Assembly: GCF_000485595.1 (NCBI RefSeq) | Contig: NW_014577115.1 | Coordinates: forward strand, 404,756 to 437,137 | Direction of reading: 5' to 3' | DNA from: Priapulus caudatus | Lineage: Eukaryota; Priapulida; Priapulimorpha; Priapulimorphida; Priapulidae | Length of the DNA: 32,382 nucleotides | Part shown: positions 4,023-28,091 of the stretch, piece after piece | Numbering within the stretch: the stretch's first letter is position 1 | Layout of the letters: every line of letters begins with the position of its first letter | The notes under the pieces: model-generated | Seen by the model: only the letters and a program-made list of their open reading frames with translations | Databases searched by the model: none | What the model was told of the DNA's origin: nothing | Translations under genes and position numbers: made by a program

Positions 4023-4029
4023 ATCGTCA

Positions 4030-5170: not shown

Positions 5171-5172
5171 AT

Positions 5173-5457
5173 GTTCTGCTAGCATCTATGACAAATACGA
5201 CATAAGCATAATTATACGCTCTTCTATGACACTAGTTGTCATAGGATAATTCTTCCTATGACAAATATTGGCGAGTCAACTTCGTTCCGCTTTACAGCTC
5301 AAATTCACTGCTTGCGTTCAGAATCGCGCTCCTAAACTCCTATGATGCGCACAACACATATAACAATATTTGTCATAGGAAGAATCTTCCTATGACAAAT
5401 AGTATCATAGGAGAGCGTATATACGTATGTCGTATTTGTCATAGATGCTAGCAGAAC
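5173..5457. mobile_element. MITE/foldback, 285 bp with arms of about 95 bp
   Basis: Arms begin GTTCTGCTAGCATCTATGAC and are near reverse complements at 5173-5270 and 5366-5457, with a loop of about 95 bp. The motif CTATGACAAAT/ATTTGTCATAG and CCTATGACAA recur within each arm. No target duplication found. Confidence 0.75.
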
Positions 5458-7190: not shown

Positions 7191-7191
7191 T

Positions 7192-7374
7192 GTGTACTAG
7201 TGTGTACTAGTGTAGTACGTGTACTAGTGTACTCGTGTAGTACATGTGTACTAATGTGTATTAGTGTAGTACATGTGTACTAGTCTACTAGTGTAGTACA
7301 TGTGTACTAGTGTAGCACATGTGTACTAGTGTGTACTAGTGTAGTACATGTGTACTGGTGTACTAGTACTAGTG
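7192..7374. repeat. Minisatellite, about 19-bp unit TGTGTACTAGTGTAGTACA
   Basis: About nine imperfect copies, rich in the palindrome ACTAGT. Ends about 20 bp beyond the stop codon of the Tudor-MIF4G gene, so it probably lies in that gene's 3' untranslated region. Confidence 0.85.
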
Positions 7375-7395
7375 TGGCCGTCTCCTACGACGTGA

Positions 7396-9029
7396 CTACT
7401 TATACATGAGGTGTCGCTCCGTGCACTGATACACGATGTGTTTCTTGCTGCCGCATGACGTACAGACTCGCTGCTCTGCGCTGAACATCTCTTTCAGCTC
7501 CTCATTGGTCGGCTTGCCACGCGACGACGGCTGCCAGGGCGCGCGCGGCGCCTCAACCTCCGAGTCGGAGTCGGAATCGAAAACATCGCCTTCCACGTAA
7601 TCGATCGGAACGCTTTCGGTCGCCGCGGCAACGGGACAAGGCGGCTCCTCCACAGCCAGGGTCTCCCAGGTGTCCTCCTCCTCCAAGGGATTCCCCTCCG
7701 CCGGGAGGGAGGTGCCGTCCACGTCTTCTCTCCCCGCGAGGGGTTCCTCCTCGGCTATGCCCTCCTCCTCCTCCTCGGCCGCAGCAAACTTTCCCTCCTT
7801 CAGCTGCGTGGCGATGCTCTTGAGGGATAGCGTCGCCACGGCGACCGAGTCCCCGGCTCGCTCTCCTCCTTCGTGCGAGCCAGCGCGATCCTGGAACTGT
7901 GAAGCGCCACCGGTATCCTCTCGTTGCTGCTCCCTGCCGCTCGTCACCGCTAGACTCTCGCTGGCCGCTGCTGCTGCTGCTGCATCCGTCTCCTCGTATC
8001 GTATTACATCATCGTTGTCGTCGCGCGGCAGTGGCGTGTCGGAGGACGCGGGCGAGCCGCACGGACTGAACCAGTTCGTCGGGCACAGCTGCGACAGCTG
8101 CCTGCTCCCTATCCCCTCATCGTTATCGCTCGTCAGCCGCCTGCCACTGCGCGGCGACGCCGTCGGACTGAACCAGTCCGTCTCCGAGTCGACAACCAGC
8201 GGCGGCGGCACCGGTGTTACCCTCTCGACATCGTCGTCGTCGTCGCCGGCGGTGTAGAGGTCGTCGGGCGATGGTGTGTCGTGGTCGTCGGCCCGCGCGG
8301 CGTCCCGCCGCACGGTCGGCGCCGGCAGCGATGGCGGCGGCACGTTTCTGAAGTCGACGAGCTCGCTGAAGCTGTTGCGCGGGTTGCTGTTGGCGTTGTC
8401 TGCGACGTCGCGCTGCGCCGCCGGATCGAAGAAAGCTGACGGCGGCTGCAGATACTCGCTGCTGTCGCCGCTGCCGTCAAACAGCTGCGGACTCGACAGG
8501 CAGGGGGCGCCACCGGCGCGGCTGCATTCGGGCGTCACGTGCGCGAAGAGACGGTCCATCACGGGCGTGCGGCGCCTCCTAGTGGGATCGGACTTCTCGC
8601 CGTCGGGGCCCCTACCGACGAAAGCCGTCGCCGGGCGCGCAGCCGACGATGCGTCTCTACTCTCCAGGGAGATCACCGCACCAATCTCGGCGGACGCCCA
8701 CTTGTCGCGGTCGCTCGGCGCGTACCATCCCCGCGCGCCTCTGACTCTCTCGCCCGCCTTACTGTTCTTCACAGCGGTGCTGTAGTTGAACGGGGGCCTC
8801 GCGGCGTCGCCGGTCGCCGCTGCGTCGGCAGCAGGCGTCTGCGCCGCGTCGTCCTCCTGGCTGGACGATCTTCCGAACGCCACAAGCTTCACCTTGCTTG
8901 TCGTACCGCGCTGTATCGCCGGCCGCGCTCGCACGGGCTCGGGGGATGGCGGGGTCGGGTCAGGGGTCGTCCAACCGACGGGAAGCCAGCCTGCACGCTC
9001 ACGCTCCTCACTACGACTACGCAGCGACC
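7396..9029 (-). CDS. Last exon: 544-codon acidic, Ser/Pro/Ala-rich tail ending in a CCHC zinc knuckle
   Basis: A single GC-rich exon, clearly richer than its surroundings, which causes long antisense open frames on the plus strand (7670-8257, 8276-8785, 8539-9075). The frame joins exon 23 in phase: acceptor TTACAG before 9029. The tail is predicted disordered, with Asp runs (DDDDD), Ala runs and Glu runs (EEEEEGIAEEE). Two related short motifs occur: TDWFSPTASP (about residue 1321) and TNWFSPCGSP (about 1355). The last 24 residues hold CTSCGSKKHIVYQC, a C-X2-C-X4-H-X4-C zinc knuckle (C1560, C1563, H1568, C1573) of the retroviral nucleocapsid/CNBP type that usually binds single-stranded RNA. 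The stop follows eight residues later. Confidence 0.85.
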
Positions 9030-10875
9030 CTGTAATTGCAAAATACTGCTGAGATGGTGCAGCAGATACATGTAGCAGTAGCCTATAATTGGCTCAAACT
9101 ATTGTTTACCTGTAAAGCTTACAGCATGCACCCGTACACTGTTGATAATCGGAGATCGCTCTAGCGATGCTACATGGATTCATTATGTTACATAGTTACA
9201 GACTTTATAGCCGGATATCTGTCTGGATCGGTACAAATTATCACGCTGGGATTGTTAGGTGGGTAATGAGATTAGTATAGATTCAGTCGTGTAGCTGAGG
9301 CCATAATAAAAATATGGTTTGTTTGCCCTCACCCGACCAACCTGCCAAAAAGGGGCCGACTCAAAAATATTTATTGATCACTGTACATTATATAAATCTG
9401 TAGGCAATACATTATATGTACCAAGCAAAACAAACATTCAACATAAAACGTATCTCCACACAAGCACACCCGAGCATGTAGACACCATGCTGAATTTGTA
9501 AAAAAAAACGCCCTAAAAAAAGCTGACCTACCTACCCAAACTTTTCAGCCTGGGTCGGGTGAGGGCAAACAAATATTTTTTTAATTGTGGCCTGAGCGAT
9601 TCTAATTGACCTTTAGCACAACATCAGGAGTTGTGTCATAGATCTATATCTATTATTATTCACTCCTGGCAACATGATTATCGTACACTCACCGCTGTTT
9701 TCAAGGTAGCGTACTATCTCCAACACAGCTCCTATTGGCACACCACAGTCCTTGAGTAAATCAGTGAAGTACTTCTGCTCAGCTGTTAACAGAGTGTCCT
9801 GAGTACGAAAAAAAACATGTGAAGAATATCCCTGTAGCGCTTAGGCTCTCGTTATCGCCGTGCCTCAGTAATTCCTCAAAGTCGATTTTATTCGTCAGCC
9901 ATGTAAGCAAGGCCACTTGGCATATCTGTATGAAGCACTACCAGTCACGTGATTGCATGCGTGACTACCCCAATAAGCGTGAGTCGCCCTCTATAGTCAT
10001 ACACTTAGCTTTACCTGAAATTTGGCCCTTACAATCCTGGAGCAACTGAATGTACATGTGCGTGCATGCGTGAGACAGGGGAGCAGCTCACATAATACAC
10101 TACTTGAACCTTCTATGCGCTCAAAAAGCGGTAAAAATGTGCGCAAGGAAGTGTCTCGCGTAAGTACCCACACAGGAATGGATTCGTAGTACGTACCCGT
10201 ATGCCATTCTCTAGAAACACAGGCAGGAGATGCTGCAAGCCCAGTTGCTCGAGCATGCGCCTCACGGATGCGTAAGCATCCTTCGTAGACGACTGTCCTG
10301 CGACAGCCTGACCATTCTCCATGCCACCATGGTACGCTTCGACTGCTGGAGACGCCATAAGTGCGTTGGCCGGGCCAGCGTGATGCTGCTTGTCCGGCAT
10401 GGTAGGCACGCATGCGGCCTGCACGCCACTGTCGACGCCCGCCCAGTTAGACGCTCGCAACAACATCACGTCAAGCAGTTTGTTCTTGATAGACCTAGAC
10501 GTACAATGAAATCAGACGCCAATGTGGAACGCATTGCAACCAAAGTCCGAACGACTGACACTGCTATACGGCAAGTGTCACAACCTTAGCATCCATGAAT
10601 CACACTCCTTATTTGCATTGCATTGAAATCACACCATTTATGCATAGAAACAGAAGTTTAATTTGATCCCATTCGGGAGGATAGAATGGCATAATTTCAC
10701 TAAAGTCGTGATAAAAATGATTACAAACACGAGAAATATACACGTGACTACATTGTATAGGTAATATCCCTACTGTCGTAACTTTGTCACATCCCTAACT
10801 GACACCTGTAAACATTTAGCTGGTGCATAACAAATCCAGTAAGCGACAGAAAACACACCAGTACAAACGCACGCA

Positions 10876-10907
<32 letters not shown>

Positions 10908-13900
10908 CAATCGCACGCACGCACGCACATATACACACACGTCAACATGCATCAGGTTCATCTCTTTAGTAAGAACCCAGTAAAATAATACCATCACCCA
11001 GAATCACATTTCCATAAATACAAGAATGGAGTAATACAGCCTGTATTAAAGTACTCGTAATTATTCTGCTATAATTGTGAATTTAGGGCAGTGGGGTTCG
11101 TTTCTTGTGCCACTCAATGCTTGCAATCTAACAGGGTAACGTGAGTAACTCACTTCAGCACTTCCTCAGATAGGACAATCTCCCGTATGGTGTCAAACAT
11201 GAATTGAGTTTCGGCTGCGTAACAGCGCTCCATCGTGAGTCCGATGTGAGACAGGACGGAGTGCAGGCAGTCGGCATACAACATACGCTTTCCCATCTGT
11301 CCCATCTGATTCTTCTGCCATTGCAAACACAAGGATTAAACCATAAAACATTACTCTGTAGCATACGCCACCTGCTTTTTTGCACACATATTGATGACGA
11401 CATTCACACCAAGATCCAAGATGAGTAGGTGATCATAGAAGCTCAACTTCTAAAAAAAACATCCGTCATGGAGCACAGTTATTATATTTCACCAATGCTT
11501 ATGATGGCCTTGTGTCCCATTGGGGAAACAAAAGGATAAGAAGAAGAACGTCTTATGGGCATTTAGCTGGGGGGGGGGGGAAATAAGACAAAGAATTTAA
11601 AATAGAATGTTGCTGAAAAGAAATGGTCCGGTGACACTTATAGTAGATATACTTTGAAGTCATATATTATATGGTACACACTCCTAGCATGGTACTAACG
11701 CATGCAATAGAGAAATATGATAACAGAAAAAACCTAAGTAGAAAATAGTTTAGGACAGCCACCGCTCTACAATACCTGACTAATCTAAACATACCTGAGC
11801 CCATCTGTTAAAGTTGATCCACTTCTCAATCATGAAGCTTATGATGGTTTTCGGGACCCTATAAAGATAAGACCAGGAGGCCGTTGTCAGCAACATCGTA
11901 AAGTTAATGCTGAGATAGCACTTACAAATAATGTAATGTTAGGAGACTAGCGGTGACCGAAAGGCGTGGCAGCTCTGAGAAAGCTCACAATTTGCTGGAA
12001 CTTACTACTTGTTCAAAAACCCGCACTGCATTTCGGGTGTGCAGACGATTTGTTTTCACGGCATATCGACCATCCGAACACATACATCAGTCTCATCAAA
12101 CGCAGTCAATTACACATTACACTAAAATAACCTACACTAAAATATTACATACATATATTCATATTACACTAAAATAATCTAATACTTAGTAACTAAAATA
12201 ACTTTAAATAATTTATTACTTATAAATTTTGAATATAAGAACTTTGAAGATGGAACAGCCAGTTGAAAGAGTGTCGGTAGAATCGAAAGTATTGGATCAT
12301 GTAAGTATATGTACAAGTGCATCTACTAGTACTAACATTGTACTGCGTTCACAGACTTTACTTTCATGAATGTTTTCTATAATCACGTACACATCTTTCT
12401 CTGATTTAACAGGAGCAAAGACAACCATCACTCATCAGTTTTACAGAAGTCGAAAGACAAGTCGTGGAAGCCTACGTACCACTAGAGACTATCAATGGAG
12501 TAATTAAGAATTACATATATCTTGTAATGCTAAAATTGATTATTAAATGTATTTTAACCTATTTGTCTAAATTTTACAGTCTCAACACTAAATGTCCTAG
12601 GACCAAGTACAGCCAACGTTGATGGCATTGCAATTATCGAACCCCTATCATTGGAAGACACACAGAATAACAGCCAGTTGTCTCCGTCAAAACGTAAGGA
12701 CAGTGATTTTCCGCAATCGCGTTAAATGGACGGAAAACATGTAAACGTCCATTGGAAACAGAAAAGATGTTTTCAAACGGAAAAATGCGGAAAACGTAAT
12801 TTGAACATATTACAACATGGAAATTTCAATAAAATCACACACAAAAACCGTTAACAATAGCATTCATAATGATATGGTTTACATTCAGACAAGTTTCAGA
12901 GCGAAATGACTTACAATTATGACTTTTGGTAGCCCTGTGTTTCAGTATACCAAATACCTTCTTTTTTTCATGCAAATATACGTAAACGGAATTTTGCATT
13001 TTTGGTGTGTACAATCTCTATGGCAAAACAGAATTTCCATTTTTTCTTTACTTTGAAACGGAATTTTCCCAAACAGAAAAGGCAATTTTTTTAAACGGAA
13101 AATCACTGTCCCTAAAAACGGATGTTGCCTTCTCGCAAAAGGGCAAGAAAGGTCACTGAAAGAAAATACGCATGTTATATTCAGGATTGAGATGTCGGCA
13201 ATGCTATCCACTGGTTGGAAACATCTACGATGCACTTGAACACTTCACTGACTACTCTACAAACTGTAAATCTTTGAACTACCATCGCTTCACCAATTAC
13301 GTTGTAAAACACCCCCGATGACAAAAATCTTAGTGTAATACATACCTGAAACCACATCAATGAAATATACACTATGCACGTATTGTTCTCTGCTATATGA
13401 ACAGAATGTACGTATTTTTTGTTGTAAGTGAACGCTCTAAAATACAGTTACCCAAGTAAAGCGAAGTAAACTTTTAGCTGCGATTTTTTAACATCGTGTT
13501 TGTAGGACTTTCCTTTAAGAATTACTCTACTCATAGAAGTCATGATATTTTGTAGTATGTAACTGCAAAAGAGCCCCTGATATTTGGCCGTCTAGCAGCC
13601 CTATAGCCTAGCCATAGAGTGATAGACAGCTATGCTATGTCCAATTCCAGTATGAGGCAAAGGTCTAATACAGGCACAATGTTTAGTTATATATAAGTTT
13701 GAACGATGCAGGTACTATTAGTATTACACACTACTAATGCGATATAATAAGATGATTAAGTTATATAAATAACTTAAATAACTAATTAGAGTAACCAAGT
13801 ATAAAAAAGAAAAACAAATAAGCGATAGAAATAACAACCCAGAGGGAATAGCACTATTGCATCGCATCGGTATATCGTTGTACCAATATTTACATTGTAA

Positions 13901-16900
13901 CAGTGAATTAACTGCGCGGAAATATTCGTGAGTGTACTGAAATCCCTGTACAAAACTGAAATTTTAAACAAACGGACCTCACCTGCAAAATCGGGGCCAA
14001 GGCAGTGTCGACTAGTCACCCGTTTTAATCTTTCTGCGAACATTTCACTGATCAAGTAGATCGTGTTCCGCGTAACACGAAAGCGTTCGCGACACATCGC
14101 CTCGGTAAGATTTCCCATGTATGCTTGTATATCCTTTCGAATTAAGTTTGGTTCTTTCGCGTATATCACATTTGTTTGTGCTCGTCTGTGTCTAATTATC
14201 ATCGCGATTTTGTTTTTTGGTGTCAAATTTAATGTTACGAGTGGGTCTAGGGTCTCGTAATGTTAGGGAAATTTGCGAGGATTTTCGTTCTCATAACTTT
14301 AAGATGTTCCTGTTAACGGCCTAGGAGTCAAAGTTAATGTTAAGACTAATGTTAAGACTAATTTTGTTTCTGGCAACAGGCCTTGGGATAAATGGTCGAT
14401 AAGCAGATGAAACAAAGGACAAAATGATACGAGTATTTAATTTAATGGTAATATTAGTAATGAATTTGTAATAAAAGTCGTTTGTTAAAAAAAATCCAAA
14501 AAATTTAATCCCGAAGTATTTCTGGAGCCGTACGAACCCTGTGTTGGGCCAATCCTGAGCAGTGAGGAAGACTCGGCCAATCAACTCGCAGTAATTCCGC
14601 TGGAGCCGCTGAGACCTTGGAGTCGACGACGACTGAAAAACAGAAGAACATTTGTTATGCTGCGAAGCAATGCTGCGTAACCATAGATACCCGTTAAACC
14701 GTGATGGGTATTTTTTATGTATTACACTATTTCTCACTTGATAGTGTCACTGCACTGCTACTATATGCTAATATGTGATGTGTAAGTACATTAGTACAGT
14801 GTTTATATGTAGTCAAAATTGACCTGAAAGAAAACTAGAAGATGGTTCTAGAAATCTTCCATCTCTCATGTACCTTCTAGCCTAGTTAGTTTTATTTAAA
14901 AGTAATGCAGATTAAATTTCCCGCCATAAATTCTTTCTTTCTTGAGTTATCAAAAAACGGTATGTCACATCATTACACATCATTCATTTGATAGAATAAT
15001 CATCAAAAGCAATATGGAGTGAACATGCACATAAAATGACTCCCACCTTTGTGTATATTAATTCGCTCTGATACTTGACTAGTAACTTCATTACAATTTC
15101 AGAAAGGTCATCCTCATCTGAAACACAAAGTTCAGCAAGAATTTAAAATGAAGATGTTAGACAATATTCCAATGCACATTGTTACATCTACAATCGTTCA
15201 AATTGATGCTCGCTCGACTAACCTGGTAGTAAGAGACGTCAGCAATGTGCTGATAAGAAAATGGACTATCTAGTTATTGCAGCAGCGTAGCAATATATCG
15301 CAGTTATACTATACATTGTAGCTACCTCGGAAATTCTGGAGAAGACTGAAGACCTGGTTCGCTTCTGGAAACCCCATCACCAGGCATTTTCTTAGGATTT
15401 CTTCCACGCAAACTCTTACCCACTCCAGCCGAGTTACTGGTACACCAGCAGCTGCCACGAAAGTAAAATGAAAAACCAATCTGACCAACACAATACATGT
15501 GAAAGCATGCACAGGACCAGTTTAACTCACATTGTTAACACCTGTTAATATGCGCTGTTGACCAGCTGACCAGTACACACATCTAAAAGTAATTTCAAGG
15601 CTAGTAGTATTCGGTTGTGTGTATTAGTTAGAGAAGCTCTAACAGAGCCAAATGGTCATAATGCTAAGGCAGGTTGTTCCATGTGGCAATGAATCAGGGG
15701 CCCGTTGTCAGAAACAAAATTAGTCTTAACATTAGTCTTAACATTAACTTTTTCTTTTAGACCGTTGACAGAAACGCTGCGAAGTTACGAGAATAAAAAA
15801 TCGTAGCAGATTTCCTCATACCATATTAACAATACGAAACAAAGTGATGTCGACGGTCTAGGAGAAATTGTTAATGTTAAGACTAATGTTAAGACTAATT
15901 TTGTTTTTGACAATGGGCCCCTGGCCTATTAGCTGAGCTATGTTGCTGCACACAGGAGATGGAGTCGTAAACAGAAACCCCTCTGCTAACCACAGCAGGA
16001 CACATGCAGGGGTAGAAATAAACTTTTGAACACGGGAGTCCAATGGACTCCCTACCCTCAAAAAGAGAGAGTCCGTAGTAAAATGAGGGAGTCCGCAGTC
16101 TGGGGTTCAAAATTAAAGATATTTTAATAACGCATGTGCTTATTTGTAAGATTCATGCGGTTGCACGTCTGCCAAATTTCCGCGAAGCTAGTTAGTATGG
16201 CAGAATTTTCAGGGAGTCACACGGACTCCTGCATATGTCAAATCAGGGAGTCCGACAGTAAATCAGGGAGTATTTGACTCCGGACTCGCGTTAATTTCGC
16301 ACCCTGCACATGGTAGCCGCTATAACCCGCAGACACCGTCAAGCCAGCGCACCTCTAGCTGAGATCATCCGCAGCCTTTCGAAGGTCACCAGGTCGGCAT
16401 CGTCGGCGTGGATCGTGTTTAGCACCCTGGTGACACACTGTGAGATGACAAACATTCGCTGTTCTGTGTCACCTTTGTCAGGCTCACAGCTGGCCTCCCT
16501 GTGACAACAACAGAAGCAGTGTCGTACCATGATTAAACCTTCATTAAAACCCGGCACACGTGGCAATTTTTATCGCTAGTACTGGCGATTTTGTTGCCGG
16601 CGACAGAATCGCCGAGAGATCGCCACGTGTGCGCTGCATGGCAATGGCGATTTTGATGCCAGAAACTCGTCGCTAGAATATCAAACATGTTTGATATTTA
16701 TTGCCGAGTCGCTGAACAATCATGAACAATCTGAACAATGCAATAGTATGTTGCCGAGAGATCGTTGCATTGTCGCCGGGTCCAGCACACGTGGCGATTA
16801 AAATCGCCATGTGTGCGCCGTGCTTAAGGGGCCCTAGACTTGTTGCTCAACACTAAAGACATATTACGAACAAAGAAAGGTGAATGAAAATAACAAGGAA

Positions 16901-19499
16901 TGAAGTGTGTGGAGGAATTACGGTATGGATGCAGACGCCACTAGCTTCTAAATGGCTCGCAACCCTCCTGTGCTTCTACTTCAATGCGATCAAGATGGGA
17001 GAACCTACCTGGAGGAGCCGTCCTGTGTATTATCACCAGAAGGAACGTGCGCTCGCCTTTGCAGTTTAGATGCGCCCGTCTTTCTCTTCTCCTTCCGTGT
17101 GCCTTCCTCAACCTTGGAGGCTACGACACTGTCGCTAGCTCCTCCTGGTGGCTGCTTCTGTGCTAGTATAGCACCCTTCCAGTCCACAGCTCCAGTGGCT
17201 GGCTGGGAGGAAGTGGCACGTTGTTTTTCTGGCAGCAGAGCACTGGAAAACATATGCACGCATTATATATCACCACCATGATCACCAGACAAGTAAAACG
17301 TTACATGTCGAGAATTAACGAGAAATAACACATTCAATATTAGGGTAAGATAATACGTTTACATGCAGAATTCGTCTATTTTTGCACATAACGAATGTTT
17401 TCATCTATTTATCTGATAATTTATAACTAACTCCTACCTTTTGAAAGTCTTCAGCATCGGAAAATCATCCTCCTTCCAGCGACTTTTCCGACTCTTGGCA
17501 TTTATAGATGTTTGGCCATGATGGGAACCAGGATTGGCATTAGACTGCTTGCCCTTGTGCTGCCCCCTACAAGTCCACACAAATGAACATGCTTGAACGC
17601 TCAAACAGTACAGACTCACATGCAACATGGTTCTTAACATGTTCAATGCTGCCTTATTAACAATGAATCTATCGCCATGTGCTGGAATTTTCTGATTGTT
17701 CAAACGAGCTGACTCGTGTTTCGCATGGAACGTGATAAGCAAACATACACAGGGTTTCTTCTGAGGAAAAATTTGACAAAGGAGGTAATGGCCAGTTTGG
17801 GGAAAAAGCGCGCATGATGGATTCAAATACAGGATGTATTGATATACTTATAGGTATATAGATACAGGATATACTTATCAGTAAATACAGGAACATTTTC
17901 ACAACGGCGATGTTAAATTTGACACCGGGGTGCGCCACTGTGCCTCCTATGTATAAGAAACCCTGATACAACATCACAAGTGTCGGCTACCACAGACTAC
18001 CCTGTGTAATCAGCGGGAATGAAATTCTACCTGTCCTTTGAGGACACGCGCTTGTGTTGCTGCTCAGATGCGTTGCCGATATAATCAGCTGCGTCATCCT
18101 CTACGATAACATCCTCCGCATCGCTGCTTCCCACGTCCCGCGTCCGCACCAGCTCGTCACTCCTCTTTGGAACTTCCCTATAACAAGAGCAATCGAAGAT
18201 AGCAAACCTCCGCCACAGCGTAACAGTCATCGCTCTATCTTGCTGGTACACCCGATATAGTTTGATGGAATTTTCCGAAATTTGGAGAAAAAAAATCGAG
18301 GATTCTCCACCAGCTTCTCCCCTCCTCCTTCTCCACCACTTTCTCCCTTCTCCCCTTCTTCATTCTCCACCAGCTTCTCCCCCTCCTCCTTCTCCACCAC
18401 TTTCTCCCTTCTCCCCTTCTTCATTCTCCACCAGCTTCTCCACCTCCTCCTTCTCCACCAGCTTCTCTCCTCCTCCTTCTCCACCACCTCACCATGCTTC
18501 ACACTTCTGCATGTGAGATCGCTTTGCGATACAGCTGGATGTGACGTCACGAATACGCGATTACATCCGATTGGTTAACACAGACCACGTGACAAAATAT
18601 GCAAATTATCTCCTGTACCGGCCTGAATATAGACAACCCCTGCATTGTGGTCTGATGGTAACGAAGTGCATTGTGGGCTATGGCAGCGATAGACTGGTAC
18701 CCGGTCCCACCTCTCGGCTTAGTTACTCGATGGGTATCGAGGTGGGAGCGAGTACCAGTCTATGGCAGCGATAGGCCACTGTGAAAAACATTTAAATTTT
18801 TTTTTTTCATTTCATTGTTTTTTTGTTTTTTTCCATTTTCATTTAATTTTTATTTTTTTAATTTTCCTTATGGCAGTCCTAGGCCACCATAGTACTGTAT
18901 CACTCAGGAAAACATCTTTTTAACTACTCAACACTTACCTTAATCACTACTAGTAGAAAATATGCTCAAGTTTTTTTTGTATATATTTTTTCTTCATGCT
19001 GTATAGCATCGTATTGTACTATATCAGTCAGAAATTTCATCATTTTATCTACTCAACACTATTGCTTTTATCAGATTTTTTCTCCATGAAAAAAACTGTC
19101 GTCAGTACATGTATTTGTATCTGAATTACATGCAATGAAGATTTAATAATAATAAGGGTTGTCTTACACAATGGAGTGAGCACACCAAGGATTTGTTTCA
19201 TACTAATGCAACGGGGCAAACGATGCATGCGGGATCTCCCTATTGATTATAGATATACTTCAAAAACACAATGGCAGTCGTTACCTCATGATTAGGATTT
19301 TCCCAACTTGCTTGCTTATAACAGCTTTATTCTGTGTAGTTAATAGCTATATACATCTATCACTTTCTTTTCCACTTTACTCTCCCTTCCCCTTTCCTTA
19401 ACAGGCTGTTAATCTCAGCTTCCATTACAAGTTCAATTGATTCTCGCTCTCAATCTATCCTTCTCTCTCTCTCTCTCTATCTCTCTCTCTCACACTCTT

Positions 19500-19560
<61 letters not shown>

Positions 19561-22500
19561 ACACCTGTTAAAATATAAACTACATTCTACTGGTCATGTG
19601 TTCCTCTCTCACCTGTTACTAGTGGGCAAGTTGTCATGGACATCTGTGTGACTCCTGCTCTGGCTAAGCGCTCCTCTGCCTAGCTCATGGGCTGTGTCTC
19701 GACCTTCTCTGCCCGCTCTGGAATATCTCTCTACCTTGCCTGTAAGCTGTGTACTACTGCCTCCAGTGTAAACCTCGTTCCTGTTTCTGCCAGCTGCGTC
19801 GAGATTCCAGTTCATGGCCCACCCCTTGCCAGCATGTTTGTCGGCACCTGTAGGCTCGTCGTATTCAAAACGCGTCTGTTCGGCTGCAAACTGTACGGTC
19901 CGCTGTCTGCCAGTGCCACGACCGTCTTGCGATGCTGCACTCTTGTTCTCCGAGCGAGGGGTCGCCGACTTATTGCTACCCTTAACGTTCTCCTTGCCTG
20001 ATAATGTCACACAAGTAGAAATGTGACACAAATAGAATAATGTATATGTATATATACATATATATATGGATGTGATGCAACTAGATGATGGCATTAATGA
20101 TGGCTTCTTAGAGTTAGAAGCATTAAGAAACCCACATGCACTCCCCAACTTCCATTATGAAACCAAGCTAAGCAAGAAGCATACACATCCACGAAGAAAT
20201 TGGTAATTTTCGTCTCAAAACTGTGATAACTGTTTCTTCCAACTAGATCAATTTTATTATATATATTCACGATTTTCTACCGTTATGATATGCAAGGCGT
20301 CCAGTTGGTCCGGTCCATTCTGGCTGGTCTTCTGTAACGTACACAGGCAGTGAGCTATCCAGCTGACTTCGAATAACAGCCATCATGTTTCCATCACAGT
20401 TACGCTGCAGAGTCGGCTTTCCAAGATGTAGATCAGTCTTGTCTGCGAAAAGGGAAATGTGTAAACAGACATCTAGGACGATAACGGACCACTTCAATGT
20501 TGCTCATTTGAATATTGTGACAGTTAATCGGCTATGGGTGAAACGTGGGACTGTCAATTTGTATAATAAATGAGTGGAAGGAAAAATTGGAGTGTCAGTG
20601 TCCCGTAATTTGTTCAATGCCAAAAACGGAAATGCAGTCGGAGATGCAACTGTAGGATAGGAAGGAAAATTGTGATTGGAGCCTTTGATGTGAAGCAAGC
20701 AGTATGATCACTCAATTGCGATCACGAGTGCTGCTGCTACTGCTACTGCTACTGCTACTGCTACTGCTACTGCTACTGCTACTGCTACTGCTACTGCTAC
20801 TGCTACTGCTACTGCTACGACTACGGCTACTGCTACGGCTACTGCTACTGCTACTGCTACTGCTACTGCTGCTACTGCTACGGCTACTGCTACTGCTACT
20901 GCTACTGCTACTGCTACTGCGGCTGCTGCTGCTGCTGCTACTGCTGCTGTTAGCGATATAGCTCACAGCAATATATAACACAGCAAGTTCCACAGCGTGT
21001 GCGGATGCAAAATCCCTCGACCTGGGTCGTGTGGAAAATATCACACGTTTGATATTTTCTTCCACGTGTGGAAGTTTGAACACCGTGTGCAGGGTGTGTG
21101 TGTAAATGTTCTCAGCCGCCTCTATGTAGCCGACCAATAGCAGGCGGTTAAGCGAGGGATTTTGCATCCGCACACGCTGTGGAACTTGCTGCGCCACTTT
21201 CCACGTGTGGAAGTTGGCACAGCAAGTTCCACAGCCTGTGCGACAGGCTCAAGGGAACAGCCCCATGTAGACTCACTCCACTCCTGCTGGTCGACTGCAG
21301 AAACGTGTGCACCAAGAAGATGGATCTTCATCAGCTCCGTTTCACCTAAAGAGAATAAATAACCAACGCAAACAACATCGCGTAAGTGAAGATGCAGTTT
21401 ATTCCTTGCTAATGACTGTAAGTGATAAACGCAGAGTAGGCTGCGCCCAGGAAAAGCTAGATAACCTCACCAGCGTTGGAAATAAGAGAAAAAAATCAGG
21501 TTGTCAAGAGGACAACCTGATGGAAGAAAGTGGTTGTCCTCAACAAAATGTGGTTGTCCTGAATGTTAATACTATTAACTTTGTGGGAGGGGTTCTATAC
21601 AACTGCCTTTTGCACAGGCATTTCTTACTTAGGATTGCAGAGGATGGTGAAAATTAAATTAACCAGTCATGTGACCAAGAAAAATATTCAAAAATTGCGA
21701 CCGCCAGTGGTGCAACATGAAAATACTGGTTGTCCTGTGCCTGGAAGATGTTGGTTTTCCTGCATGATTTTTGGTTGTCCGGGACAACAGGATCAACACT
21801 ATTTCCAATGCTGCCCACTCTAAGTGCAGTACAGTGGCTCTGCATCAAGCACACGCTAATCTGCTTTACACTCACTAACTGCAATTGCACCTACCCTCAC
21901 TGGAGATGGTTTCCCTGTCAATATTATCATCATGAAGCAATTCCTTGTTGAAGCTGGGTACTGTTACCTCGTTGAATCGATCTGTGTGGAACAAGTTTCA
22001 AATAAGGTCTCAAGAAAACTAACAACATTGAACACAGATAAATGCTGGTAGTATAAACTCAATTTCAGATAAAGATTTTTCATTTTGACCTGATCACTAT
22101 TCGAAATCCCATCAAAGGAACTTAAAGTAAAGCTCCCAATGTTTCATAATGCATACCTTGTTGGTTTTCATCCTCATCAATTCTGTCCATTCCAGCGCTA
22201 TTTTGGCCACTGTCAATTAACCTGTATTCTTGCTGTGAGAGTAATGACGAAAACTATATAGGAACCATATACACAAGTAGACTTATATTAAAAGTGCACG
22301 TCACATTTCTTACCCTTGCATAGCTTGTGTAGAGTCAAAACAATCGCAGAAAACAAACACAGTACAATATTTTACGCGTTTTCACATATAGAAGGAACCA
22401 ACAGATTATGCATGCACTGATATGGGTGCAACCCACCACAATCTCACCATAGATGAATGATGCGCATTGTCTAGTCCCATGGAAACTAAACCGGCATTAG

Positions 22501-24785
22501 CAAGAACGGCAGCTATTTGATTCAGGCCATTTTGCCTGCGGAATAATAAAAGAAAACGTACTTACGAAAAACTGCAGCAGAGACTAGTCATTTATACAAC
22601 TGTGTACTAAAACATAGAATCTGAACATACTAGTACATTATCCTACACACGGTTAGATGAAATCTGTATAATGGCAATCATGAATTTCAACCTTTTACAA
22701 TTAAATCCAGTGTTTCCCCTGCATTGCCACGAGCGAGGCGGGCTGCCTTGCTCAAATTCTCAGCCGCCACACAGAAATTTGTCCAAAACACCACCTCACT
22801 GACGAAACTTTTGACAACTTGAAAAAGAGATTCAAGAGTCTCATACAATGTGTTCAGAATAGCTTAGAATGCACCAAATTGCACCATTTTTTCAAAAAAA
22901 ATCCCCGGAGGAGCATGCCCCCGGACCCCCTAGCTTGGCCAGCACCTGCACTGCTCGTTTTGCTAGGACCTCGAAATGCGCAAACACATCACAAAAAACA
23001 TTTACCACCTCACAGACTTTTTTGGCCAGGGGAAACACTGAAATCAATTGAATTTTAACAGGAACTGGTCAGTGCATGATGCACGCTTGATGCCTACGTT
23101 TGAGACAAGCCCATGCTCTTCACTCCGTGACACTGTGACTCCATCTTGCCCCACAAGACCACGCCTTCCACTAGCTCCCTGAATCTTCCAATGGCCTCGG
23201 CGCTATATTCCTCCTAGTGTGGAACACGTGTCGATAATCACATTTTAGTTTTACAAAACTGGAAGGTGCTAGTCTAATGTGTGAATGCATGAAACTCACC
23301 ACTGTCACACATTAGCTACCAGGAATATCAACTAAGATCTCATACACATCACCCTATTAACTACTATTCATTAACTATAAATTAAATTCACTATTAAATT
23401 ACTATTAATTGACCCTATTAATTATAACCATATTACTAATTGTTTGCACAGCTGTAATGCCATGTAATAATGAAGGGGATGAAATTATATTACCCTTTCA
23501 TGATTACCTCTAAGATCTACATGGAAACAGCAATGCCTCGTGGGTCCATCACGATCACCATCACTATATACATTTGGACATCGACGATATTCTTCTAAAC
23601 ACTAACAAGAATCCGAGTCAGCAATCGTTACTACAACAACGTTGTTTCTAGATTGACGTGCGCGCGTGCGAGTACGTACCGAATCCGTGAGCGGTGTAAC
23701 GTTCGCGAGGCTGCACATGAATGCTTGTGCTGGCAGCGCCTCGACTGAGAACTCATGAGGCATCAGCCGACTCGAGATCACGTGGTCCAGTGGAACTTTT
23801 TCAGAGAAGCCATAGTCCAGCAAGTAGGTGTCAACCTCATCTCTGCAATCAGTCACGAATGAACTGTATCATACAAACCCAGACATAGATTGCCGAACAG
23901 GCTTATAGTATTGCACTCTATGAGGACATAAGCCAAATATTCTATCAAGTCGTGGGAAGCTCTTGGTCCAAAGCAGGGATAGGCAATCTTGTTTTTCAAT
24001 GTGACCACAGGTGTAGCAAATGAAATTTGAAACTGGCTACACCAGACAAAAACTGAAATTAGATTTCCAAGTTAGAAATTGAATATGCTGTTTAATGAAG
24101 TTATTATATGATTCAACATGTATATTTTTACTATGCAGTTACAACTGCCTTGGATTCAAATGATGACAAAATGAGAAGAGATACGAGATCTCGTAATCCC
24201 CTTTCTATGCAAAAATATGACAAACTCAAATTCACCACATTTTTATAGCCAATTCACAACTCGTGATGCCTGTCAACAAGATTGCTCACTGCTGGTGTAA
24301 AGCATACCAAAAATTAAATTAAAAAGCACAATTTGTGTCATCACCACAAGAGGCATTTCCTAAAGTAACTTTTTACATTTCTTTCATTGATAATTCAACA
24401 GTGAAACTTGCTATGCAGCATAAATAAGTCAAAGCTCAACCAAAAATAACTGAAAACAGGGAGTAGTGTTACTCATTAACACTGTGGCAGTTTCTGTGTG
24501 GGTACTTCACAATGCTTAGCCATCGTTGTACTCCCTTACCCATCCAATGCCAGGACACTGGCGCGGTGCCAGCGGTCAGTGCGATGACTACTGATGCAGA
24601 TGAGACAGCCCTCGTAGGCCCACTCGTATGTCCCCGCCGTCTGATTCTCATCACACCAGTCTTGAAGACGATCCTCGAACTGGGTGAAATATTCGAGGGA
24701 GGCGCCTGCAGGGGAAAAAGAATTATGTTAGGCAGGGAGCAAGGTGTCTACGCAATCAACAAGATAGACTTGATATATACACTTG

Positions 24786-24844
<59 letters not shown>

Positions 24845-26379
24845 TATATTTATATACGAATATGGATTAAATAAAAACAAAGGCACAGGCTACAATATTG
24901 GAAAGCCAACACTTGCTAGCCCTAATTATCAATGATTTATTAGGTTTAATTCAACAAACCTGAGCAGAATCTACCTCAAACATTCTCCTAGCACTGCACA
25001 TAGTTAGTTTATCAATACACATTCCCAATCCACAGATATACAAAGAAATGTAAAACAGGTTTTTTTTTAATTCTAACTATAAAATGAGAGCCAATTTATT
25101 GCCTCATATTTTATGGTGAACATTATCAAAACTGTGTTGGGCATCTTTCTGCTGATTGTGAAGTGTATGGGAAAACGAATTACATTGATGCTAGGGGTCC
25201 GACTGTTTATTGAATTAAACATAAGAAATCCTAAATAGAATAGGGCTAGCAAACATTGGATTTCCAATAATTTTGCCTTGGATACTCTTGTTTTTATTCA
25301 CTCCTGGTGTGTGCGTGTGTGATTAATAAGATATTTAATTTGTGTAATTATTTAATTATTTCTCACTGCGAAGTTTATTCTCTCCGGAAATTATTCTCTA
25401 TTCTAGAAAACATGGTTTGTAAGTTGTCATAAATGGATAGGAATTACTTTTTACTTATTACTTCCTTATCAGTACAAGCCTCTATATGGCTGCTTCAAAG
25501 ACTATACAATGCAATTAATAAGGCTTACGCGATCCTATCTGTGCTGTGAAGTTCCTGGGATCGATCACGTGTGTGACACGTACTACCAGGTCAAGCAGAG
25601 TGGGTACTGCACTGCCAACATGATTCTCCCCAGCTTTTAGAATCCATCCACGTCCCTGCGATGATAAAAGATCATGTTTACTAGACAGGCAATAGAGAAT
25701 GATCGTAAAGCAAGGAAACAGAATTGACGGAAACAATTTCACAAAATATTTTATCTCTGAAATATTACTTAGTCGTTAGTCACTTATTACTGCAAATAAA
25801 AATAACTAATATAGCATTTTATTCTAACTCAATTAAATTTCCAGTGAAAATTATGTTGACATTTGTTAGCTTATTTTCTGGCGTGTATTATTAATTCTTC
25901 GTAGGGGTCGAAATTAACAGTCGCCCAAGCTTAATGAATTTGCACCAGCACTGTTATATTGTCAAAACTAACCAACCAGGATAATAAGTTTAATAATAAT
26001 AAGCTAGTAATAATTTTGGCTGGTTTCCATGTAGGCCCTGTTATCATACATGATACATCACTTTTACACACACGCACACATAATGAAAATGTAATAATAA
26101 ATATACTAAAGTATACAAAGACAAAATATTATACAGTATAAAATACACGCCTAGTAAAACCATTTGTGTAATTTAAGAGCTGGAGTCCCTGGTATTAACT
26201 AAAAACCTGATATATTTCCTGCGGAAAACCCTGGAGAGATTAAGGGTTAGTAAGTATTACTACAAGGTGTAGTACATTTTTATTTTGATAGCCCTGCTGG
26301 CTCGTTGGTCATATTAGTTAATTTCGACTCCTGCATAATAACATGTATTTTAATGACTCACCCTTCCGATTCCTTTCAT
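7396..26379 (-). CDS. 24-exon gene: Tudor - MIF4G - SAM - CCHC zinc-knuckle protein (1581 aa model)
   Basis: Hand-built spliced model, minus strand. Exons in transcription order: 26379-26362, 25655-25529, 24705-24540, 23842-23680, 23213-23098, 22535-22448, 22232-22157, 21981-21895, 21345-21277, 20442-20281, 19997-19613, 18177-18031, 17566-17438, 17242-17009, 16498-16353, 15451-15326, 15117-15047, 14632-14538, 11858-11795, 11449-11372, 11314-11154, 10494-10197, 9798-9693, 9029-7396. All introns are GT-AG and all phases agree, which is strong evidence for one gene. Start: ATG at 26379 gives MKGIGR followed by a GTGAGT donor, with an in-frame upstream TAG in the genomic sequence. Stop: TAG at 7398-7396. 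Least certain: the first exon, and the donor at 14538 (GTTCGT, weak; another exon may lie between 14538 and 11858). The domain order suggests a cytoplasmic RNA-granule or translation adaptor; that role is inference. I do not recognise the family. Confidence 0.85.
9299..9592. mobile_element. MITE, 294 bp, flanked by TGA
   Basis: Inverted termini GGCCATAATAAAAATATGG and GGCCACAATTAAAAAAATA, followed at both ends by the perfect TTTGTTTGCCCTCACCCGAC. TGA lies directly outside each end (9296-9298 and 9593-9595), compatible with a 3-bp target duplication. It sits in the intron before the last exon of the Tudor-MIF4G gene. A 60-codon open frame inside is not credible. Confidence 0.75.
9693..10265 (-). 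CDS. Exons 22 (3' part) and 23: SAM domain, residues about 978-1036
   Basis: The end of exon 22 reads VRRMLEQLGLQHLLPVFLEN, and after a clean phase-0 junction exon 23 reads DTLLTAEQKYFTDLLKDCGV then GAVLEIVRYLEN. This follows the SAM pattern (WL..LGL..Y...F..NGI, L..LT...L..LGI, G.R..IL..I..L). The usual first Trp is Met. SAM domains form homo- or hetero-oligomers or bind RNA hairpins (Smaug type); which applies here cannot be told. Between MIF4G and SAM lie about 50 low-complexity residues. Confidence 0.75.
10197..16498 (-). CDS. Exons 15-22: MIF4G-like helical domain, residues about 656-925
   Basis: Motifs in order resemble the MIF4G domain of eIF4G, PAIP1 and MIF4GD. Exon 15: VTRVLNTI and DLVTFERLRMIS. 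Exon 17: LLVKYQSELIYTK, like the family's LL...Q.E. Exon 18: RLQRNYCELIGRVFLTAQDW, like the hallmark R....N..FIGELF. Exon 21: ADCLHSVLSHIGLTMER, like LECLC.LL..IG...E, then FMFDTIREIVL. Exon 22 opens with NKLLDVMLLRASNWAG, matching the terminal R..FML.DV.DLR...W. MIF4G domains are HEAT-repeat-like and bind eIF4A, eIF3 or other translation and decay factors. The domain is split over eight exons, with a 2.7-kb intron (11859-14537) holding a Harbinger remnant, a MITE and a possible nested gene. The exon 18/19 junction is the weakest. Confidence 0.75.
10866..10927. repeat. (CGCA)n/(CA)n microsatellite
   Basis: ACGC and CA repeats in the intron between exons 21 and 22. Confidence 0.95.
12250..13321 (+). 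CDS. Possible small nested plus-strand gene, 4 exons, or its decayed remains
   Basis: Sits inside the big gene's 11859-14537 intron on the opposite strand. Exon 12250-12300 encodes MEQPVERVSVESKVLDH and ends at a strong GTAAGT donor. Exon 12413-12499 follows TTTAACAG and continues in phase (SLISFTEVERQVVEAYVPLE). Exon 12580-12693 follows TTTTACAG (STLNVLGPSTANVDGI, SQLSPSK) and ends at GTAAGG. Exon 13185-13321 follows TATTCAG in matching phase (LRCRQCYPLVGNIYDALEHF) and ends at TGA. Exons 1-2 and 3-4 agree in phase, but exon 2 to 3 does not with any donor I can find, so an exon is missing, a junction is misplaced, or it is a pseudogene. The last exon has a CxxC plus a later Cys (zinc-finger-like). 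Not recognised. Confidence 0.35.
12698..13111. mobile_element. MITE, 414 bp, termini GGACAGTGATTTTCCG
   Basis: Starts GGACAGTGATTTTCCGC and ends with the inverted copy CGGAAAATCACTGTCC. Inside, short ACGGAAAA-type repeats recur in both orientations. It begins four bases after a GT splice donor of the possible nested gene (12694) and makes up most of that intron. No convincing target duplication. Confidence 0.7.
13786..14226 (-). pseudogene. PIF/Harbinger-type transposase, N-terminal fragment
   Basis: A 146-codon open frame whose middle resembles the N-terminal helical part of Harbinger (HARBI1-like) transposases: MCRERFRVTRNTIYLISEMF corresponds to the family's E.FRM....F..L, and STLTNISAQLIHCYNVNIGT followed by TIYRCDAIV to ...S.R.IG..F.VS..TV....  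The frame then runs into unrelated hydrophobic sequence. No DDE catalytic region was found in the 500 bp downstream, so the copy is truncated. The sequence just upstream (14227-14383) is the element's terminal region, shared with the MITE at 15695-15923. Intronic, same strand as the host gene. Confidence 0.6.
14227..14383 (-). mobile_element. Terminal region of the Harbinger-like element
   Basis: Read on the minus strand from 14383 it begins GGCCTGTTGCCAGAAACAAA and continues with two copies of TTAGTCTTAACA. The same terminal sequence, followed by more than 100 bp of weaker similarity, forms the left end of the MITE at 15695. The opposite terminus was not found, so this copy is incomplete. 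Confidence 0.65.
15695..15923. mobile_element. Harbinger-derived MITE, 229 bp
   Basis: Termini CAGGGGCCCGTTGTCAGAAA and, inverted at the right end, CAGGGGCCCATTGTCAAAAA, then TTAGTCTTAACA twice at both ends; inverted repeats of about 55 bp. The left 120 bp align with the end of the transposase-bearing remnant at 14227-14383, suggesting a non-autonomous derivative. No clear target duplication. Lies in the intron between exons 16 and 15. Confidence 0.75.
16006..16308. mobile_element. Inverted-repeat element with GAAATTAAC-type ends
   Basis: Left end TGCAGGGGTAGAAATAAAC and right end, inverted, TGCAGGGTGCGAAATTAAC. The interior holds several copies of GGGAGTCC and its complement, so the element can fold on itself. 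Boundaries are approximate. Its right end is about 45 bp from the donor of exon 15. It is related in its termini to the element at 25903. Confidence 0.6.
16548..16823. mobile_element. MITE with TTAA flanks (piggyBac-like target), 276 bp
   Basis: TTAA occurs just outside both ends (16544-16547 and 16824-16827). Ends: AACCCGGCACACGTGGCAAT on the left and, inverted, GCACGGCGCACACATGGCGA on the right, both followed by TTTT and ATCGC. Internal GGCGATTTT/ATCGCC repeats occur. TTAA target duplication is characteristic of piggyBac-type elements; assignment is tentative. Lies between exons 14 and 15. Confidence 0.6.
17009..22232 (-). CDS. Exons 7-14: charged, low-complexity linker, residues about 227-655
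   Basis: Eight exons joined in frame between the Tudor and MIF4G parts. The encoded stretch looks mostly disordered. Exon 7 is Asp/Glu/Gln rich (RIDEDENQQ). Exon 11 (19997-19613), about 128 codons, has many Arg, Gly and Ser residues (DGRGTGRQRT, YSRAGREGRD, SQSRSHTD). Exon 12 is acidic (VIVEDDAADYIG). Exons 13-14 are basic (KSRKSRWKEDD, RKEKRKTGASK). Splice signals are good throughout, for example GTGAGA at 19612 and GTAGGT at 17008. RG/RS patches may bind RNA or be arginine-methylated; this is inference. No enzymatic motif, DEAD-box or KH domain was seen. Confidence 0.78.
18300..18490. repeat. Pyrimidine-rich minisatellite (CTTCTCCACCAG...)
   Basis: About three copies of a roughly 60-bp unit built from TTCTCCACCAGCTTCTCCCC and CTTCTCCACCACTTTCTCCC. 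Intronic, between exons 11 and 12; strongly strand-asymmetric. Confidence 0.85.
18693..18760. mobile_element. 68-bp hairpin insertion flanked by 14-bp direct repeats
   Basis: Arms ACTGGTACCCGGTCCCACCTC (18693-18713) and its near complement (18739-18760) surround a 25-bp loop. TATGGCAGCGATAG occurs exactly on both sides (18679-18692 and 18761-18774), as expected of a target-site duplication. A related start, TAGACTGGTACGCGGTC, occurs near 3552. Intronic. Confidence 0.65.
19068..19160. repeat. Dispersed repeat, copy A
   Basis: Shares CAGTACATGT.TTTGTA, TGAATTA.ATGCA and AAGATTTAATAATAATAA in the same order with 27215-27297. A fragment of an unidentified interspersed repeat in the intron between exons 11 and 12. 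Confidence 0.6.
19457..19558. repeat. (CT)n microsatellite
   Basis: Long CT runs broken by CTAT and CACACT. It precedes exon 11 by about 50 bp on the plus strand, that is, just inside the intron after the exon 11 donor. Confidence 0.95.
20730..20950. repeat. (CTACTG)n hexanucleotide satellite, about 220 bp
   Basis: Near-continuous CTACTG/CTGCTG repeats with a few CTACGG variants. Intronic (between exons 9 and 10). It creates spurious Leu-rich and Ser-rich open frames. Confidence 0.95.
20981..21191. repeat. Inverted repeat with perfect 39-bp arms
   Basis: Arms 20981-21019 and 21153-21191 are exact reverse complements, beginning CAGCAAGTTCCACAGCGTGT. The loop carries a second inverted pair (AATATCACACGTTTGATATT and TTCCACGTGTGGAA). 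A third partial copy of the arm follows at 21215-21241. Directly abuts the hexanucleotide satellite at 20730-20950. Confidence 0.8.
21495..21800. repeat. GGTTGTCC-rich repeat block with hairpin
   Basis: A perfect 11-bp stem (ATCAGGTTGTC at 21495-21505 and its complement at 21511-21521) is followed by several copies of GGTTGTCC spaced over about 280 bp. It sits in the intron between exons 8 and 9. Probably a decayed repeat element; no ends defined. Confidence 0.45.
22448..26379 (-). CDS. Exons 1-6: extended Tudor domain, residues about 28-226
   Basis: Exon 2 carries VRVTHVIDPRNFTAQIG, the N-terminal strand of extended Tudor domains (typically V.VTHV.SP..F). Exon 3 ends with YEGCLICI and DRWHRASVLALDG, matching the Tudor pattern G..C.....D..WYRA.V. 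Exon 4 continues with VDTYLLDYGFSEKVPL, then LPAQAFMCSLANVTP, the usual LP.QA..C.LA.V.P tail. Exon 5 (FRELVEGVVLWGKMES) and exon 6 (QIAAVLANAGLVSMG) fit the C-terminal SNase-like half. Tudor domains of this kind bind symmetrically dimethylated arginine in Piwi-type and other RG proteins. Oddity: the usual Asn of the DYGN.E motif is Phe here. The 25656-26361 and 22536-23097 introns contain mobile elements. Confidence 0.85.
22708..23040. mobile_element. hAT-like MITE, 333 bp
   Basis: Perfect 14-bp terminal inverted repeats: CAGTGTTTCCCCTG at the left and CAGGGGAAACACTG at the right. CAGTG..TCCC termini are typical of hAT elements. No exact 8-bp target duplication was found. The interior has the GC-rich stretch CCCCGGAGGAGCATGCCCCC but no transposase frame. 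It ends 58 bp before exon 5. Confidence 0.75.
24788..24850. repeat. (TA)n microsatellite
   Basis: Continuous TA repeats in intron 2, about 80 bp upstream of exon 3 in the gene's direction. Confidence 0.95.
25903..26332. mobile_element. Inverted-repeat element in intron 1, ends AGGGGTCGAAATTAAC
   Basis: Left end AGGGGTCGAAATTAAC, right end inverted AGGAGTCGAAATTAAC, 430 bp. A second inverted pair lies inside (for example AACTAACCAACCAG near the left). It fills more than half of intron 1 and stops 30 bp from the first coding exon. Confidence 0.65.
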
Positions 26380-26831
26380 TCTACAGCCAGAATTCCACCA
26401 CCTGACTGTAAATGCGCCCCCTAACAAGATATCCTGCTAGTGCTGCTACCATGAGACACAAGTTTATCAAATGCTGTGACTGCTCCTCATTAATTAGCCT
26501 TTCGCTCTTTCAGTCGTTCACTTCATAGTATGTACATCTGCAGGGTCTGCAATTCAAAGTCAATGCGTATAGACACCAAGACAGCGCAGCATTATGAATC
26601 ACTGTTAGTGTTACTGTGTAGATTGCTACCCACTGCTATATTGAGTGTCTACCTATAACTTAGTAATGATTAGTAGCATGTTGTAACTGTAAAAGTGTAA
26701 GTCGTAGTAGTGCTAATTACAGAATGTATGATTGCCAACTCAAGAACTTGAAAATATTTCTGTGTTCTGACGTTCCCAGGTAATTATAATAGTTCCCAGG
26801 TAAATATACCAGTAGATGAAGCAGAGTCTAC

Positions 26832-27490
26832 TAGTACTAGTACTACCAAGTTTTGGTCACTACATTTCTGACCTTCTCGCCACGTAGTGACAAGCGAGAA
26901 GGTAACTTGGGTTGGCAGCCGTTCCTAGTACTACTAATACTACTAGGATCCGTAGTGAACTCGCCTCGCTGGCAAACCCGACCCCATGTGTCCAGTTTAC
27001 CCGCCTGGAGGTCGGCCAACTCAGATAAGACTACACGCAGACTGTTATGATTTATTATATGATTATAATCTACGTATAATAAAACTTTAAATGGTTATTC
27101 CCAAAAAATGCTACATCATATGGACAGGCATCCGCAGCTACTAGAATGAGAGAACGACTAAAAGTGCCTCCAATAGAATACCTAATTAACCACGCTTATA
27201 TTCATATACAAATACATCTTTTCTCCGTGTAAGACTGTTTTCAGTACATGTGTTTGTACTTGAATTATATGCATCAAAGATTTAATAATAATAATATGAC
27301 ACTGACATGACATATCCATAGGATCTGGGGCGACAATGTATGCTTAGGCCGACTTTTCGCCGTCGAAGCGTGTGTGAAACATCTCAATGAGTTAGCCCGG
27401 GACGGGCTGCACCAACTCCAGGCGGGTCATTTTGACCCACGAGCCAACTAGTCCTCACTACGGCCAGTACTACTACTAGGCCCTACTAGA
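26832..27490. repeat. Possible foldback: loosely inverted CTAGTAGTA-rich ends
   Basis: 26930-27020 and the complement of 27384-27490 share CTACTAG-type runs, CCGTAGTGA and ACCCGCCTGGAG in the same order. The similarity is patchy and boundaries are unclear. No coding frame of note. Confidence 0.35.
27215..27297. repeat. Dispersed repeat, copy B
   Basis: Second copy of the repeat at 19068-19160, same orientation, about 75 percent alike by eye. It lies between the two inverted CTAGTAGTACT-type segments at 26832-27010 and 27384-27490. Confidence 0.55.
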
Positions 27491-27545
27491 CTTATTTCAA
27501 CACTTTCGAAAATGTTGTTGCAAAATATACGGTACTGACATTACT

Positions 27546-28085: not shown

Positions 28086-28091
28086 ATTACT

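Follow-up and report, generated by a model that had tools for sequence, protein, structure and literature searches.

Does a single gene of Priapulus caudatus join a Tudor domain, a MIF4G domain, a SAM domain and a CCHC zinc knuckle in one polypeptide? Tudor proteins are organisers of germ granules and piRNA granules, and the MIF4G domain activates DEAD-box helicases during translation and decay. If a single polypeptide does carry both, it would connect a granule scaffold directly with helicase activity or translation, a link that would become testable in an early-branching ecdysozoan. Positions given below refer to the window, i.e., the whole stretch of DNA that was analysed (32,382 nucleotides; C55:404756-437137), and genome-wide searches were performed on the 385-Mb assembly of 2952 contigs to which it belongs.

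Gene model and splice structure

The gene was rebuilt manually, with open frames and splice borders as guides. The rebuild agreed with the original prediction of 24 exons joined in one frame on the minus strand, from 26379 to 7396 (Table 1), and yielded a spliced protein of 1581 residues with a numbering identical to that of the prediction. An AG precedes all 23 exons that follow exon 1, and a GT is found after every exon except exon 24. A single frame is open in 20 of these 23 exons and two frames are open in the other three (exons 3, 16, and 18). Every exon junction is in phase; because the exon borders were picked by eye, this agreement does not amount to an independent test of each junction. 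Exon 1 as the start of the gene is uncertain, and nothing convincing was found when upstream exons were sought by eye in the remainder of the window (26380-32382). Immediately beyond the window, the scaffold reads N on both sides.

Table 1 Exons of the predicted gene and the probable insertion in intron 18, with positions in the window
Feature	Position	Strand	Remarks
Exon 1	26362..26379	-	18 bases, six codons, ATG and donor gtgagt; provisional start
Exon 2	25529..25655	-	Start of extended Tudor; AG/GT, one open frame
Exon 3	24540..24705	-	Extended Tudor; Pfam TUDOR 31-151, PDB eTud matches; two open frames
Exon 4	23680..23842	-	Tudor core; Pfam TUDOR; coding score > 99.9% of size-matched controls
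Exon 5	23098..23213	-	C-terminal eTud flank; PDB matches extend to residues 173-184
Exon 6	22448..22535	-	Linker; one open frame, in phase; coding score undistinctive
Exon 7	22157..22232	-	Linker; one open frame, in phase; coding score undistinctive
Exon 8	21895..21981	-	Linker; one open frame, in phase
Exon 9	21277..21345	-	Linker; one open frame; coding score above every control segment
Exon 10	20281..20442	-	Linker; one open frame, in phase
Exon 11	19613..19997	-	Linker; one open frame over 385 bases
Exon 12	18031..18177	-	Linker; one open frame; coding score above every control segment
Exon 13	17438..17566	-	Linker; one open frame, in phase
Exon 14	17009..17242	-	Linker; one open frame, in phase
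Exon 15	16353..16498	-	Start of helical region; one open frame; coding score above every control
Exon 16	15326..15451	-	Helical region; two open frames, in phase
Exon 17	15047..15117	-	Helical region; one open frame, in phase; coding score undistinctive
Exon 18	14538..14632	-	Helical region; two open frames, in phase; donor gttcgt
Probable mobile-element insertion, most of intron 18	11874..14382		Ends resemble arms of MITE-like element
Exon 19	11795..11858	-	Leads into likely MIF4G C-terminal half; profile match from residue 819
Exon 20	11372..11449	-	Likely MIF4G C-terminal half; profile match 819-921
Exon 21	11154..11314	-	Likely MIF4G C-terminal half; profile match; coding score > 99.6% of size-matched controls
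Exon 22	10197..10494	-	Likely MIF4G end (LLDVMLLRASNW) and probable SAM first half; coding score above every control
Exon 23	9693..9798	-	SAM-like segment, second half; one open frame; SAM pattern mostly by eye
Exon 24	7396..9029	-	Disordered-type tail, two WFSPxxSP repeats, CCHC knuckle CTSCGSKKHIVYQC (1560-1573), stop

A second copy of the gene (paralogue or haplotype) was sought in the genome and none was found: 23 of the 26 matches were to this locus itself, and the other three were Tudor segments (30-35% identical, E 0.007 to 0.27). Scanning the window for Rfam families and tRNA gave no match. A long AGC/AGT triplet array lies in intron 9 (20710-20962), and the two WFSPxxSP repeats in the tail (residues 1323 and 1357) possibly constitute a short linear binding motif.

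Coding signal and one gene versus two

Codon usage was trained on 3425 codons from further loci of this genome, leaving out a repeat-derived ORF, and exons 2-23 were compared with 13771 open AG..GT segments of the window of similar size (260 to 7591 per exon), which overlap and are not independent; exons 1 and 24 have no size-matched controls. Coding scores were above all controls for exons 9, 12, 15, and 22, above at least 96% of them for exons 3, 4, 5, 21, and 23, above 91-95% for exons 8, 16, 18, 19, and 20, and above 85-89% for exons 2, 10, 11, 13, and 14, and those of exons 6, 7, and 17 were indistinguishable from non-coding open segments. The annotated frame was the best-scoring one in 15 of the 24 exons, with eight expected (stops unpenalised). 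Since some linker exons score as coding, the linker between the Tudor and MIF4G parts holds real exons, although a gene border could lie inside it.

Intron 18, a 2.7-kb intron (11859-14537), had originally been named as a place where the gene might break. A MITE-like element with terminal inverted-repeat arms that are 91% complementary was found in intron 15 (15695-15923). The right end of the putative insertion in intron 18 (14311-14382) is 85% like one of these arms, and the left end (11874-11895) is 86% like the other, over 22 bases, a length at which a chance match is possible. Intron 18 is probably mostly a mobile-element-like insertion, as judged from these ends, and the concern about a gene break at this intron is thereby lessened.

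These results bear on the alternative that two same-strand neighbours were fused in the reading, i.e., a Tudor gene (exon 1 to about exons 6-10) followed by a MIF4G-SAM-CCHC gene. Consistent with it are the undistinctive scores of linker exons 6 and 7, an exon 1 of merely six codons, and the fact that an in-phase join at any one junction has a chance of 1 in 3. It is opposed by the agreement in phase of all junctions together with the single possible frame in 20 of 23 exons, by linker exons 9 and 12, which outscore all size-matched segments, and by the probable nature of the 2.7-kb intron as mostly an insertion and no gene border. We consider such a fusion unlikely and favour one gene.

A 158-residue open frame within the insertion (13786-14262, minus strand) possibly encodes a transposon protein; its Pfam matches were weak (Myb-like and others, E 0.055 or more).

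Extended Tudor domain and its cage

The N-terminal Tudor domain is certain: it had been predicted at residues ~28-226 and was recovered with Pfam PF00567 at residues 31-151 (42.1 bits at a cut-off of 23, E 1.1e-10). With phmmer against PDB, eight to ten matches were obtained, including TDRD1 (E 4.8e-7), TDRKH, and Tudor-SN (CG7008), and the extended Tudor (eTud) matches, which take in the flanks, fall in residues 31-184.

When aligned with TDRD1, TDRKH, and Tudor-SN, the domain keeps W94, R96, and D113, of which R96 and D113 are the structural arginine and aspartate. The columns assigned to the aromatic cage read S88, H95, L111, and Y114, so that one of four aromatics is left, and F116 is found where Tudor-SN and TDRD1 have asparagine. 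According to PMC7255803 and PMC10711660, eTuds possess a cage of four aromatic residues, an asparagine that makes contact, and the structural arginine and aspartate, and those with an incomplete cage are able to bind unmethylated partners; precedents described there are SIMR-1, in which two of the four cage aromatics are lost, and TDRD2, which favours an unmethylated PIWIL1 peptide. With the asparagine and all but one of the cage aromatics replaced, the link to methyl-arginine-marked RNP that had been proposed for this protein is weakened. Given these changed cage residues, binding of symmetrically dimethylated arginine by this Tudor appears unlikely.

An eTud with the structural arginine and aspartate is shared with the extended-Tudor proteins TDRD1, TDRKH/TDRD2, Tudor-SN, RNF17, and SIMR-1 (the last by its published description). 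Unlike in these, the eTud is here a single N-terminal one that retains one cage aromatic of four, and it is accompanied by MIF4G-like, SAM-like, and CCHC parts, with no KH, RING, or further Tudor found by Pfam.

Elsewhere in the genome, the Tudor gene L021 (C426:135000-144500) has an open frame of 718 residues in which several Tudor repeats were recognised by eye, one or more of them with an intact aromatic cage (CCAQFTGDDRWYRAE...VYYVDYGN, likewise by eye).

MIF4G-like region

A MIF4G-like domain had been predicted at residues ~656-925. Its C-terminal half (819-921) was backed by home-made profiles, and the rest is putative. Pfam missed MIF4G: neither the whole protein nor fragments of it had the family listed at a maximum E of 10, with HMMER filters discarding most matches above about E 0.1. 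A genome-wide exon search with PF02854 gave six matches, none of them at this locus, where the search was handicapped because it reads exon by exon and the domain is spread over eight exons.

MIF4G profiles were built from PDB matches of eIF4G1, eIF4G3, DAP5, MIF4GD, and CWC22 and from the CWC22 of the genome itself. The four-member profile comprises eIF4G1, eIF4G3, DAP5, and MIF4GD, and the six-member profile adds human and own CWC22. The helical region alone scored 20.0 bits with the former and 22.7 bits with the latter, and none of 3000 shuffles scored as high. Against single sequences, the scores (with the number of shuffles at or above them in brackets) were 10.9 for eIF4G1 (1), 10.4 for DAP5 (0), 9.6 for MIF4GD (1), 7.9 for eIF4G3 (2), 0.6 for human CWC22 (184), and -1.6 for own CWC22 (1516), i.e., pairwise scores were higher with eIF4G1, DAP5, and MIF4GD than with CWC22. 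The whole protein was searched together with 2637 control ORFs (from fetched loci and the window) and matched the four-member profile at residues 819-921 (17.2 bits, E 3.7e-4) and the six-member profile at residues 862-921 (20.3 bits, E 5.4e-5); the rows ranking above it (12 and 13) all came from the MIF4G loci L001-L005, some overlapping and counted twice.

Alignment of the single sequence with hhalign gave a probability of 68% over 144 columns at 22% identity, starting from about residue 764. Residues 656-935 are hydrophobic and poor in proline and glycine; residues 656-818 had no match to a MIF4G profile, and for this part there are the make-up and the start of the weak hhalign alignment. 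No PDB match to the helical region was obtained with phmmer at E ≤ 10. The ending LLDVMLLRASNW resembles those of eIF4G1 and MIF4GD.

The helical region might instead be a HEAT/ARM-like domain that resembles MIF4G in its last repeats only, in which case the gene would encode a Tudor-plus-helical-repeat protein of another kind. The failure of Pfam and of the genome-wide family search to find MIF4G, the confinement of the match to residues 819-921, and the hhalign probability of 68% fit this explanation. The higher-scoring rows of the control search, all from MIF4G loci of the genome, the absence of a shuffle (0 of 3000) reaching the profile score, and the ending similar to those of eIF4G1 and MIF4GD argue against it, and we regard it as rather unlikely. 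On the basis of the profile matches, the C-terminal half is likely to be MIF4G. It would share this half and the closing motif with eIF4G1/3, DAP5, and MIF4GD, in contrast to which the domain is here below Pfam detection, has an unrecognised N-terminal half, and is fused to a Tudor, with no match in the protein to the eIF4E-binding YxxxxL-phi pattern; the PAM2 pattern likewise had no match.

SAM-like segment and zinc knuckle

For the SAM domain, predicted at residues ~978-1036, the first half was made probable by a profile of the genome's own SAM exons; the segment is below the Pfam cut-off and its second half was recognised mostly by eye. For a 67-residue piece, Pfam listed two families, SURF4 (13.8 bits, E 0.046) and behind it SAM_2 (12.7 bits at a cut-off of 20.5, E 0.15), and in an 88-residue piece no SAM was listed by Pfam at E ≤ 1. 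None of the 20 matches of a genome-wide SAM_2 search lay at this locus, and phmmer against PDB with the SAM region returned four non-SAM chains (best E 0.02). The own-genome profile scored 14.8 bits, which none of 5000 shuffles reached (best shuffle 10.6); in the whole-protein control search it scored 9.7 bits (E 0.13, rank 28), and it aligns residues 978-1006 only. Taken as a whole, the SAM assignment is weak, with the first half probable.

An open segment directly before exon 23 (9799-9925, minus strand; KIDFEELLRHGDNESL) resembles, by eye, the central part of a SAM domain and was omitted from the gene model, as no frame-keeping donor was seen. Joined to exon 22, it gave a SAM_2 match of 13.8 bits (E 0.067), with the score mostly from exon 22.

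The predicted CX2CX4HX4C knuckle is present as a motif at residues 1560-1573 with all four ligands and falls below the zf-CCHC cut-offs of Pfam. CTSCGSKKHIVYQC is the only match to this pattern in the whole protein. With zf-CCHC_3 (cut-off 27), the last 37 residues scored 17.3 bits (E 0.0045) and the whole protein 9.8 bits (E 0.96); B-box and zinc-ribbon families were also found below cut-off in the last 37 residues. The predicted order Tudor-MIF4G-SAM-CCHC is therefore supported at unequal strength, with the Tudor certain, the MIF4G C-terminal half likely, the SAM probable, and the knuckle recognised by its motif.

Relatives and known families

Relatives were sought with a protein search that needs exact shared 5-residue words and limited lengths and that would miss distant orthologues. 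Region 650-1060 gave no hit among 4887 candidates at E ≤ 0.001, region 1-230 gave one among 1734 at E ≤ 0.01 (duck RNF17), and a condensed MIF4G/SAM/CCHC query gave none among 105 at E ≤ 10. A relative with the Tudor-MIF4G-SAM-CCHC order was not found by this word-based search, and no domain is therefore backed by conservation; the absence of relatives is in itself weak evidence because the search depends on exact shared words. Among the literature matches listed, no paper describes a Tudor-MIF4G protein, and none on Tudor and piRNA names Priapulus. In PMC5458760, the MIF4G domain and the Tudor domain belong to separate proteins.

The gene could be a rapidly evolving member of a known orthologous family, in which case other animals would already possess this domain order and the word-based search would have missed it. 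The need for exact 5-residue words speaks for this explanation, as the Tudor region retrieved one Tudor protein only, and so does the succession of SAM, long disorder, and C-terminal CCHC, which is reminiscent of ZCCHC14/GLS-1. ZCCHC14, ZCCHC2, and GLS-1 have a SAM, then long disorder, then a C-terminal CCHC knuckle, as here, and are not known to carry Tudor or MIF4G, unlike this protein. The lack of a paper on a Tudor-MIF4G protein among the literature matches listed speaks against it, and we consider the explanation possible and somewhat doubtful. A domain order common to other animals would mean an undescribed family; otherwise, it would be a lineage-specific fusion.

Proposed function

We put at about even the prospect that the product of one gene is an RNP scaffold of several domains, composed of a cage-less eTud, a long disordered-type linker, a MIF4G of eIF4G/DAP5/MIF4GD type, a SAM, and a zinc knuckle. 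In such a scaffold, the Tudor would bind a protein of the PIWI pathway or of granules through an unmethylated or hydrophobic peptide, the MIF4G would engage an eIF4A-, Vasa- or DDX6-like DEAD-box helicase or some other translation factor, the SAM would multimerise the protein or bind an RNA hairpin, and the zinc knuckle would contact RNA, and the protein as a whole would recruit such a helicase or factor into a granule organised by Tudor. Through its MIF4G part, the protein may thus be tied to translation or to helicases. Piwi-domain matches in the genome numbered 16 on three contigs, with C751 being PIWI-clade and C260 and C613 AGO-clade by eye, and the PIWI-clade gene was counted in favour of the granule scaffold.

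As stated in PMC5458760, MIF4G domains stimulate DEAD-box ATPases by contacting both RecA-like domains, and the LOTUS domain present in Oskar, TDRD5, and TDRD7 is a Vasa binder that uses a different surface from MIF4G. The LOTUS-Tudor proteins TDRD5/TDRD7 resemble the present protein in being Tudor proteins that also bear a DEAD-box helicase regulator; they differ in that their regulator is a LOTUS, which binds Vasa on a surface other than that of MIF4G on its helicases (PMC5458760). More speculatively, a Tudor protein may have gained a MIF4G as a second, LOTUS-independent means of attaching and activating a DEAD-box helicase in germ granules, with its Tudor re-tuned to an unmethylated partner, a scenario that we rate as improbable.

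Mitochondrial contig

Priapulid mitochondrial gene order is treated in PMC5068742. One contig of the assembly (C2952; loci L042, L046, and L047) is mitochondrial, with 14919 bases and invertebrate code 5. Its ORFs, named by eye, follow the order nad1, cob(-), nad6(-), nad4L, nad4, nad5, nad2, cox1, cox2, atp6, cox3, nad3, i.e., the order of arthropods except that one block is inverted, and this is the priapulid order.
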